DNA of 33,732 nt from a virus, in the IMG/VR virus record IMGVR_UViG_3300047325_000009, positions 1 through 33,732 of that record; one strand, 5' to 3'. Position numbers and translations under genes: made by a program. Shown here piece by piece: positions 1,316-31,050 of this stretch. The first letter of the stretch is position 1. Each line of letters opens with the position of its first letter. The notes under the pieces are model-generated. The model saw nothing but the letters and a program-made list of their open reading frames with translations. It had not been told where the DNA came from and did not search any database.

Positions 1316-2051
1316 TCTGTCGGCGCTATCCGTGGCCGAGAAGCGCGAGCTGTTGGCGCTGCTGGAGGAAAAGGAACGGCGCCGTTCGATGCGTCGAATC
1401 GAGACGTACTATCCCGACGAAGGGCCGTTGCGGCGCGAATTATACCCGAAGCATATCGCTTTCTTTGCTGCCGGCGCAGAACATCGAGAGCGACTTATGT
1501 TGGCTGCCAATCGTGTTGGGAAGACCGAGGGAATTGGCGGTTACGAAACCTCTGTGCATCTGACGGGACTGTATCCAAAATGGTGGACGGGCCGAAGGTT
1601 CAACGGTCCAATCCAGGCTTGGGCGGCGGGTGCGTCCAACGAGACGACGCGCGACATCGTGCAGGCCAAGCTGCTTGGCGGCGTTTCATGGGACGGATCG
1701 AGAAAAGGAGTCAAGGGCACTGGATTGATCCCCGGCGAGACCATCGGAACCATTGCGTGGAAGCAAGGCGTTAACGATCTGGTCGATACGGTACAGGTGC
1801 GTCACGTCAGCGGCGGATGGTCTGTGCTGGGGATCAAATCTTACCAGCAGGGGCGCAAATCGTTTGAGGGCACCGAAAAGGATCTCGTGTGGCTGGACGA
1901 AGAGCCGCCAATCGATGTCTACTCGGAATGCCTAGTTCGGACCATGACCACAAACGGGCTCGTACTCCTGACGTTTACGCCACTGGAAGGTATGAGCCAG
2001 GTGGTTATGTCGTTCCTGGAGAATGGCAAGCTGCCGGATAGCATGTCATGA
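1305..2051 (+). CDS. terL: terminase large subunit, ATPase part
   Basis: 248 residues holding the N-terminal ATPase domain of the packaging motor. A Walker A-like motif AANRVGKTEG lies near residues 68-77, the Walker B motif DLVWLDEE at 193-200, and the coupling motif TFTPLEG at 223-229. The protein then stops at a TGA (2049-2051) in the middle of the usual linker to the nuclease domain. The rest of terL resumes in another frame at 2189. In a normal terL, NGKLPDSMS would run straight into RYVGTCTWDDVPHL, so almost nothing of the protein is missing: the gene is interrupted rather than decayed. Either two polypeptides act as a split motor, or the RNA or ribosome bridges the gap. Confidence 0.85.
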   Translation: MPADLSALSVAEKRELLALLEEKERRRSMRRIETYYPDEGPLRRELYPKHIAFFAAGAEHRERLMLAANRVGKTEGIGGYETSVHLTGLYPKWWTGRRFNGPIQAWAAGASNETTRDIVQAKLLGGVSWDGSRKGVKGTGLIPGETIGTIAWKQGVNDLVDTVQVRHVSGGWSVLGIKSYQQGRKSFEGTEKDLVWLDEEPPIDVYSECLVRTMTTNGLVLLTFTPLEGMSQVVMSFLENGKLPDSMS

Positions 2052-2188
2052 GAGCGGCATGGCGCTCTGCCGCTCTCATTGGGCGGATCTAATTTGGCAA
2101 AAAACATCCAGCTACTTTGCGCCACCTGCAACCTCTCAAAAAAGGCTAAGCACCCTCTTGTTTGGGCGCAATCTCTCGGATTTTTGCT
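2046..2188 (+). other. about 146-nt insertion splitting terL, with perfect hairpin
   Basis: Aligning the two terL parts by protein logic places an insertion between ATG (2043-2045) and ATG (2189-2191); joining at these two identical codons gives DSM-SRYV with no loss. The insertion begins with a stop codon. It contains a perfect 11-bp stem, ATGAGAGCGGC (2048-2058) paired with 2069-2079 around a 10-nt loop, and a second 7-bp stem TTGCGCC (2117-2123) with GGCGCAA (2165-2171). A TAATTTGGCA 10-mer at 2090-2099 recurs in gene 26001-30974. Length is not a multiple of three. It is too short for a usual group I intron. A remnant intron, a translational bypass element and a simple split of the gene are all possible; I cannot decide. 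Confidence 0.6.
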
Positions 2189-3952
2189 ATGAGCCGGTAC
2201 GTGGGCACCTGCACGTGGGATGATGTTCCGCACCTATCCCAGCAGGCCAAGGATGAGCTTTGGGCTTCAATTCCGCCATTCCAGCGTGACGCGCGATCTA
2301 AAGGCGTTCCCCAGCTCGGTAGCGGCAGCATCTACCCTGTCGGCGAGTCCGATATCACCTGCGTGCCTTTCGACATCCCCGCTCACTGGAAGCATGTTTA
2401 CGCGATGGATGTAGGATGGAATCGCACGGCAGTCCTTTGGGGTGCGCTGGATAGTGAGGCTGACGTGCTGTACCTCTACAGCGAGCATTATCGAGGTCAG
2501 GCAGAACCCGCTATCCATGCACAGTCCATTAGAGCGCGAGGGGCATGGATACCCGGCGTGATTGATCCTGCCGCCCGAGGCCGCGCTCAAACAGATGGGC
2601 AACAGCTTTTGGTGGTTTATCAGGAATTGGGCCTTAACCTGACAATCGCAAATAACGCAGTGGATGCGGGAATATATCAAGTTTGGACAAGACTATCCAC
2701 TGGTCGCTTGAAAGTGTTTTCGACACTTCAAAGTTTCTTTGGGGAGTATCGACTTTACCGGCGAGACGAAAAAGGGAAAATCGTCAAGGAGTCAGACCAT
2801 TTGATGGATTGCTGCTTCGCCCCGGAGACAATGGTCTGGACCGATAAAGGTCTCCGTCCTATCTCTGCATTGGATGGCACGAGCGGGAATGTGTATTCGA
2901 TCGATGGAGAAATCCTGCCTTATATCGCGTGTCGAATGACTGGGAAAAATCGTCGTCTTTTGACCGTTTCATTTTCCGATGGGACCGAAATTCGGTGCAC
3001 TCCCGATCATAGATTCCTCACGCCAAATGGGTGGGTGCCGGCAATTGATCTTATGGGCGCCGAATGTTATACCTCTGTATCTAATGGAAACAGAGGCGCA
3101 TCGTGGACCCAACAATTATCAACCAAAGATGCCAGGAGTTTCGCGGGACAAGGTATTATCTTTGCGGAAAATATTTTACCCGAAACGGGGATTTGCTCCA
3201 TCGAGCGGTATGGGCTTTCAACAACAGCTGGGCCGGAATACCAAAAGGTTTCCATGTCCATCACAAGGACCATGATCGAGCAAACAACCGCGCAGATAAT
3301 CTCGAATTGGTCGAAGCCTCTGCGCATTTGTCGCGCCACCATACGGGCCACAGTCGAGCTATTACGCTCAAAGCTCTGCAAAAAGCTGCAGGGTGGCACG
3401 GAAGCGATGAAGGCAAGATATGGCACAGGGGGCATTACGCGAAGAACGCGGATCTTCTCCACGTCATCGGAGAATTCCAATGCGTTGAATGCGGCGCTCC
3501 TTACAACGCTCAAATCAATGGGCGCAACAAATTTTGCTCAAACAATTGCAAGACACGTTATCGGCGCAGATCAAAAGTGGACGATGCGCCTCGAAATTGT
3601 GTCGTATGCGGTGTCGAGTTTATTAGCAACAAGTACAGCAAAACCAAAACATGCGGCTCAATCTGCCACGGTGTTCTGTCTGGACGTTCTAGACGAGGGG
3701 CATCGAAGCGAGGTTTATTGCCTGACGGTCCCAAAAAATGAGGCCTTTGCCGTTGGGACTGGCGGCATTATCGCGCATAACTGCCGCTACATGTGCATGA
3801 GCGGGATTGACCTTGCATCGTTCCGCCCAATGGAAGACTTCAAGCAGCGGTTCGGCATCAAGCCCCAACATACCGTGGAATACGATCCGTTCTCCCGCGA
3901 CCGTGTAACCGGCGGCCAGCAGCAACCGGGATCGCGCCACGTCGTCGGCTGA
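2189..3952 (+). CDS. terL: terminase large subunit, nuclease part, with intein
   Basis: 587 codons: 208 extein codons, a 323-codon intein (2813-3781) and 56 extein codons. The spliced product carries the RNase H-like nuclease that cuts concatemers. WDDVPHL, QRDARSKGVPQLGSG and IYPV match terL linker sequences; acidic nuclease residues are visible in YAMDVGW, GVIDPA and SDHLMD. The intein sits right behind the last of these, a typical highly conserved intein site. ATG 2189 is chosen because MSRYVG continues the broken ATPase part; the frame is also open from a TTG at 2162. The ribosome binding site is weak (CGGA about 8 nt upstream). Codons near the intein are unlike the GC-ending codons of the virion genes. 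Confidence 0.85.
   Translation: MSRYVGTCTWDDVPHLSQQAKDELWASIPPFQRDARSKGVPQLGSGSIYPVGESDITCVPFDIPAHWKHVYAMDVGWNRTAVLWGALDSEADVLYLYSEHYRGQAEPAIHAQSIRARGAWIPGVIDPAARGRAQTDGQQLLVVYQELGLNLTIANNAVDAGIYQVWTRLSTGRLKVFSTLQSFFGEYRLYRRDEKGKIVKESDHLMDCCFAPETMVWTDKGLRPISALDGTSGNVYSIDGEILPYIACRMTGKNRRLLTVSFSDGTEIRCTPDHRFLTPNGWVPAIDLMGAECYTSVSNGNRGASWTQQLSTKDARSFAGQGIIFAENILPETGICSIERYGLSTTAGPEYQKVSMSITRTMIEQTTAQIISNWSKPLRICRATIRATVELLRSKLCKKLQGGTEAMKARYGTGGITRRTRIFSTSSENSNALNAALLTTLKSMGATNFAQTIARHVIGADQKWTMRLEIVSYAVSSLLATSTAKPKHAAQSATVFCLDVLDEGHRSEVYCLTVPKNEAFAVGTGGIIAHNCRYMCMSGIDLASFRPMEDFKQRFGIKPQHTVEYDPFSRDRVTGGQQQPGSRHVVG
2813..3781 (+). other. intein within terL
   Basis: The sequence starts with Cys1 in CFAPETMVWTDKGLRPI (block A). 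It continues with TVSFSDGTEIRCTPDHRFLT (block B, with the TxxH motif) and ends with EVYCLTVPKNEAF (block F) and GGIIAHN followed by Cys (block G, penultimate His and terminal Asn, +1 Cys). All residues needed for splicing are present. Removal joins HLMDC to CRYMCMSG. At 323 residues it is longer than a mini-intein, but the middle (about 3100-3660) does not look like an endonuclease in this frame. In that region the HNH endonuclease is encoded in a different frame, so the intein-frame residues there are an overprinted linker kept free of stops. Confidence 0.88.
3103..3741 (+). CDS. HNH homing endonuclease nested out of frame in intein
   Basis: 212 residues from GTG 3103, preceded by AGAGG six bases upstream, in a different frame from the surrounding intein. 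The HNH_3-type core is clear: LLHRAVWAF, then IPKGFHVHHKDHDRANNRAD (about residues 46-65) and NLELV, giving the His-His-Asn catalytic set. Two Cys4 zinc ribbons follow: CVECG with FCSNNC (127-149), and CVVCG with TCGSIC (166-188), probably for DNA binding. The gene ends at 3741 inside intein block F/G coding sequence. It likely cuts intein-less terL alleles and drives spread of the element. Usually an intein endonuclease is fused in frame; here it must be translated independently. Confidence 0.85.
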   Translation: MDPTIINQRCQEFRGTRYYLCGKYFTRNGDLLHRAVWAFNNSWAGIPKGFHVHHKDHDRANNRADNLELVEASAHLSRHHTGHSRAITLKALQKAAGWHGSDEGKIWHRGHYAKNADLLHVIGEFQCVECGAPYNAQINGRNKFCSNNCKTRYRRRSKVDDAPRNCVVCGVEFISNKYSKTKTCGSICHGVLSGRSRRGASKRGLLPDGPKK

Positions 3953-30976: not shown

Positions 30977-31050
30977 TGGAGCGGACGCCCGGACTCGAAC
31001 CGGGATCATTAGTTTGGAAGACTAAGGCCCTACCATTGGACGACGCCAGC
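30977..31050 (-). tRNA. tRNA-Gly (anticodon UCC)
   Basis: The reverse complement folds as a complete 74-nt tRNA with encoded CCA. Acceptor halves GCTGGCG and CGTCCGC pair with one mismatch (3:70) and one G-U. The D arm is GTCC/GGGC with loop AATGGTA; the anticodon arm TTAGT-CTTCCAA-ACTAA gives UCC; the T arm is CCCGG-TTCGAGT-CCGGG; the discriminator is U, as for bacterial tRNA-Gly. It begins two bases after the giant core gene and is opposite in direction. It reads GGA/GGG codons, uncommon in the virion genes but used in the inserted elements. It could alternatively be an attachment-site copy of a host tRNA. Confidence 0.85.

Follow-up and report, generated by a model that had tools for sequence, protein, structure and literature searches.

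The terminase locus and its intein

The window discussed here is the whole stretch of DNA that was analyzed, the 33,732-nucleotide viral record IMGVR_UViG_3300047325_000009, in which the terminase genes are encoded on the plus strand. The gene for the terminase small subunit (899–1315; PF20901, 1.1e-35; PHROG 1482, 1.2e-37) is followed by a terL gene that is in two pieces. The ATPase half, TerL-N, is a separate gene (1305–2051; PF03237, 1.7e-12; PHROG 31467, 2.7e-88), and the nuclease half, TerL-C (PF17289, 8.7e-6; PHROG 5653), starts with an N-extein at 2189–2812 that ends in KESDHLMDC. Relatives of this TerL are either contiguous or split at the end of TerL-N. In the window, the space between the halves (2052–2188, plus strand) holds what is left of another HNH gene, unrelated to the one in the intein described below, and encodes the tail of its protein; positions 2052–2186 match PF14279 (HNH_5, 4.9e-7), PF01844 (8.5e-5), and PHROG 1035 (2.7e-6). 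At the same site, a longer HNH gene is found in the relative L139 and another small ORF in the relative L019. A known RNA element was also considered for the 146-nt interruption of terL and was rejected, as there is no Rfam match, the fold z-score is only −1.5, and the interruption contains the HNH remnant. A tRNA gene (30980–31050, minus strand) is located close to the 3′ end of the window.

No stop interrupts the terL frame between 2150 and 3949, such that the N-extein, the intein, and the C-extein share one ORF. The intein spans 323 amino acids on the plus strand (2813–3781), from Cys1 (2813–2815) to a terminal Asn (3779–3781), and its last residues, IIAHN, are followed by Cys+1 at 3782. 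It is recognized by the Pfam profile Intein_splicing (PF14890, 6e-9) and by the NCBIfam profiles TIGR01445 (3.8e-6) and TIGR01443 (1.6e-7), and its features are those of a class-1 intein: Cys1, a block B TxxH motif (T63, H66), the terminal Asn with Cys at +1, and insertion into the conserved host motif DHxxDAxRY, for which an empty allele is found in the intein-less relative L018 (DHLMDASRYLV). Cys1, TxxH, the terminal Asn, and the +1 residue are all conserved in alignments across relatives. A profile of the window intein matches the solved gp41-1 intein (8.8e-18), and solved inteins match this profile only at its two ends (positions ~1–90 and 280–322), indicating that a Hint fold flanks the HNH gene on both sides. 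The Hint-N half (blocks A and B) lies at 2813–3052 and the Hint-C half (blocks F and G, with the Cys at +1) at 3707–3784, where they match the HintN and HintC profiles, respectively; these fold assignments, like that of the HNH protein, are profile matches only. Between the halves the intein frame continues through 3103–3706, a stretch that appears to be overprinted filler, as no constraint beyond the absence of stops is seen in it. The C-extein, beginning CRYMCMSG, occupies 3782–3952.

An HNH gene in a second reading frame

In a canonical homing intein the endonuclease is encoded in the Hint frame. In contrast, the HNH gene of the window (3103–3741, plus strand) occupies frame −1 relative to the intein, with a GTG start at 3103, a stop at 3741, and a Shine-Dalgarno-like AGAGG (3092–3096) six bases before the start. 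Its 3′ end overlaps the start of Hint-C, an overlap present in 84% of loci. The 212-residue product matches PF13392 (HNH_3, 6.3e-11) and, over residues 1–205 and thus nearly its full length, PHROG 15471 (5.8e-46). The HNH catalytic core expected of an HNH homing endonuclease is present (3193–3327, PF13392 match at residues 31–75), with His33, His53, His54, and His75 invariant, and it is followed by two zinc ribbons of the form CxxC...CxxxC (3481–3666), whose cysteines (C127/130/145/149 and C166/169/184/188) vary little or not at all among 39 relatives. The family profile also matches I-HmuI (1u3e) weakly (7e-4) over the HNH core. A preliminary description of this DNA, made from the letters and their open reading frames, had proposed an intein with intact splicing blocks at 2813–3781 in the terL frame and a 212-codon HNH gene with its own GTG and AGAGG in a different frame. 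Both proposals are borne out, with the coordinates as given there.

Related loci and selection on the two frames

Related loci were collected by tblastn and by collection scans using three narrow HNH alignments, yielding 245 distinct loci over which Hint-N, Hint-C, and HNH profiles were run to assign an architecture. In 145 of the 245 loci the HNH gene is overprinted, with both Hint halves in one ORF that runs through it in the +1 frame relative to HNH, and in a further 5 (L166, L182, L198, L201, and L206) the same arrangement uses the +2 frame. The remaining loci comprise 44 with a split-intein layout, in which stops separate Hint-N from Hint-C and the HNH gene lies between the halves, 45 with a free-standing HNH gene and no intein found nearby, and 6 that are partial; these proportions are biased, because the HNH queries were drawn in part from overprinted members. 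The window intein, contained in a single ORF, does not have the split layout. Fusion of HNH in frame to both Hint halves was seen by the profile scan in 0 of the 245 loci, and such a fusion would have surfaced in the same searches despite the bias. The Intein_splicing profile is matched by 59 of 62 members. The overprinted set, which holds 128 members at <75% identity, includes Tetrasphaera phage TJE1, an Acinetobacter phage, and a Rhodobacteraceae phage. Overprinted nesting is consequently not a one-off, as it recurs in considerably more than 100 viral sequences of diverse kinds.

Examples of the split layout in terL, with the HNH gene between the IntN and IntC ORFs, are Vibrio phage 1.238.B (L005), Lactobacillus phage CL2 (L014), and L126. 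An archaeal case was found separately in plasmid pGSL19_54.9 of Halobacterium sp. GSL-19, where a terL intein carries a +1 overprinted HNH gene (L309, 2411–3070). The HNH gene is unannotated in the public records of TJE1, Highwayman, LS06-2018-MD07, and Halobacterium pGSL19, suggesting that such genes are likely being missed.

Taken by itself, the window offers modest evidence, suggestive at most, that its open double frame exceeds chance: the probability of an open intein frame is 0.0026 under synonymous codon shuffling and 0.056 under the codon usage of the genome. For the window alone, an open +1 frame is not very improbable, and the reading that chance or sequencing frameshifts created the arrangement, with HNH really in the intein frame, draws its support from these values of 0.003–0.056. 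It is the homologues that are decisive for a real dual-frame arrangement. The intein frame contains 0 stops across 143 overprinted HNH genes, whereas codon shuffling within each gene gives a mean of 2.4 stops and leaves only ~13 of the 143 open. Free-standing relatives carry 8.2 stops in the +1 frame versus 8.0 after shuffling, and 0 of 42 are open. Codons of the form NTA, which create stops in the +1 frame, occur at 1.7 per 100 in overprinted genes versus 5.0 in free-standing and 4.5 in split ones. The remaining frame carries ~20 stops, and its stop content may explain the dominance of +1. Sequencing frameshifts, which the preliminary description had named as the finding that would undo its dual-frame reading, are excluded by recurrence of the same frame relation in independent records; with 145 such loci and closed controls, the chance or sequencing-error reading is already refuted by the homologues. 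A separate suggestion, that the free-standing members recently escaped from overprinted inteins, was judged unlikely, as they show no depletion of +1 stops.

The two frames differ in the selection that they record. In 38 pairs, dN/dS for the HNH frame is 0.07–0.33 where computable, versus ~1 when the same DNA is read in the intein frame, and the codon-position spectrum of overprinted genes (0.28/0.25/0.47) resembles that of free-standing ones (0.28/0.24/0.48). Hint-N, too, shows constraint in the frame that encodes it, and Hint and HNH divergence are correlated (rho = 0.42; 0 of 500 permutations). These results show purifying selection on the HNH frame and on Hint, and both the splicing halves and the nuclease look to be under selection, with the intein-frame middle apparently needing only to stay open. 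Such a comparison of dN/dS in the two frames had been proposed with the preliminary description, and its outcome agrees with the view expressed there that the middle of the intein is an overprinted linker.

Several features bear on how the HNH protein is made. An ATG start is present in 123 of 142 overprinted HNH genes, and a Shine-Dalgarno match of at least 4 nt precedes 46% of overprinted HNH starts versus 18% of internal ATG/GTG codons; a clear match is absent in about half of the genes. An alternative is that ribosomes shift by −1 out of the intein frame and so make HNH joined to Hint-N, as could be imagined from the −1 position of the HNH frame relative to the intein, to which only five overprinted cases are exceptions. 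Those five +2 cases do not fit −1 frameshifting, and slippery heptamers show no enrichment in the stretch where it could occur (7/128 versus 38/384 controls). Furthermore, the HNH frame opens a median of only 12 nt before its start codon, and the conserved start codons and enriched Shine-Dalgarno matches also speak against a fusion, making frameshifting a very improbable route. Taken together, these features favor internal initiation over a frameshift fusion without proving it, in line with the independent HNH start first noted in the window and now seen across homologues.

Almost all of the inteins interrupt TerL at DH..DA.RY, their exact positions differing by a few codons, in host proteins of both the Terminase_3 and Terminase_6 types. 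An HNH-less mini-intein is found at a neighboring position in the relative L009, and free-standing HNH members adjoin terL in several phages. The HNH tree is weakly resolved, 26 of its 201 inner branches being starred. Free-standing and embedded forms are interspersed in it, with 29 changes, at least 10 of which the starred branches require. Overprinted and split forms tend to group in clusters, and the +2 arrangement arose about twice. The free-standing genes beside terL, the mini-intein of L009, and the at least 10 forced switches make it plausible that a free-standing HNH gene was captured by a mini-intein, as had been suggested for the window, with the direction of the switches not proven.

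Proposed mechanism and relation to known systems

The reading that best accommodates these results, to which a probability of roughly 0.85 is given, is that the window contains a class-1 cis-splicing intein at the TerL DHxxDAxRY motif that houses an independently translated HNH homing endonuclease overprinted in frame −1, with splicing, internal initiation, cutting, and homing all predicted from sequence. Ribosomes on terL would translate the whole intein, with the overprinted stretch serving as an unconstrained linker that joins Hint-N to Hint-C, and the intein would then splice out to leave TerL-C. Ribosomes starting at the internal GTG would produce the free HNH protein, which could cut intein-less terL near the insertion site, and repair would copy intein and nuclease together. 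A free-standing gene would bring its own stop; in frame, that stop would truncate TerL, but out of frame it would be harmless provided that the other frame is free of stops. Where the other frame could not be cleared of stops, the intein may have been kept as two separately encoded halves around HNH, as IntC can have an ORF of its own that begins close to where HNH ends.

Two other accounts of the locus can be weighed against an overprinted homing nuclease. The HNH protein may instead be a cofactor of the terminase in packaging, placed in terL for co-expression. The free-standing members that adjoin terL would fit such a role, as would the functional association of HNH proteins with terminases cited in PMC4422536. 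However, the scattered presence of the gene, with free-standing and embedded forms interspersed on the tree and relatives that lack the intein or the HNH gene, its location within an intein placed precisely at a conserved motif, which is typical of homing, and the resemblance, albeit weak, of the family profile to I-HmuI make a packaging role unlikely. It could also be proposed that terL is a decaying gene, broken at 2051, and that the intein and its overprint are relics. The terL frame is indeed interrupted between 2051 and 2189, yet both halves retain their domains, TerL-C has its own ATG, the same break with both halves intact is seen in L019 and L139, and the splicing residues of the window intein are intact. 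Decay is thus quite improbable.

Components of the overprinted arrangement have counterparts elsewhere. The endonuclease I-HmuI is encoded in a group I intron; it shares with the window HNH family the weak profile similarity over the HNH core, and differs in having an intron rather than an intein as host; the window HNH family has zinc ribbons. Dassa and colleagues in 2009 reportedly described fractured genes in which split inteins surround an endonuclease gene. The 44 relatives with Hint-N and Hint-C in separate ORFs and HNH between them are similar to this, whereas in all 150 overprinted loci, that of the window included, a single ORF spans the intein. In mycobacteriophages, inteins also occur in the terminase large subunit, and splicing and cutting have been shown for some, the active ones having an identifiable endonuclease domain (PMC5050341); those inteins lie in the ATPase domain, in contrast to the nuclease motif and the out-of-frame HNH found here. 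Another parallel by description is brucellaphage terL, for which a single sentence in a 2015 paper reports an intein-encoded HNH gene out of frame in all brucellaphages (PMC4422536); that report covers one phage group. The ShiLan domain likewise is a GTG-started HNH out of frame in a stop-free host frame, but its host is a DNA methylase, it lacks the intein splicing blocks present in the window, and its insert is believed to be retained in the protein (PMC11855218).

An out-of-frame HNH gene, in a terL intein (PMC4422536) or in a methylase gene without an intein (PMC11855218), is consequently not in itself unprecedented. What is new here is the breadth, the conserved frame, the evidence of selection, the split alternative, the archaeal case, and the antisense examples. 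No account of the breadth, the fixed frame relation, the missing in-frame fusion, or the selection was found in the literature searched; an actinobacteriophage-intein preprint may describe related cases. It is about as likely as not that nesting out of frame is a general means for inteins to capture stop-bearing, free-standing nuclease genes. In its favor, this HNH lineage is seen in cis-inteins only through overprinting (+1, rarely +2) or splitting and never in frame, in phages of many hosts and an archaeal element, and another HNH family does likewise in antisense orientation in P-loop terL inteins.

Two proteins that are normally fused are here encoded on top of each other, a widespread way for an essential gene to carry a mobile nuclease that is not joined to the splicing domain. 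The loci also provide many naturally occurring long overlaps between genes on the same strand, where selection acts on one frame and the chief demand on the other is to stay open. Furthermore, the acquisition of endonucleases by inteins becomes testable, as free-standing, empty mini-intein, overprinted, and split forms occur in related loci.

Antisense arrangements are also observed. An HNH gene with a helix-turn-helix lies antisense inside a P-loop terL intein in L019 (1362–2234, minus strand) and L139 (533–1435, minus strand), with the sense intein frame open in both, and L127 has an antisense match (1376–1684, minus strand) with one sense frame open.
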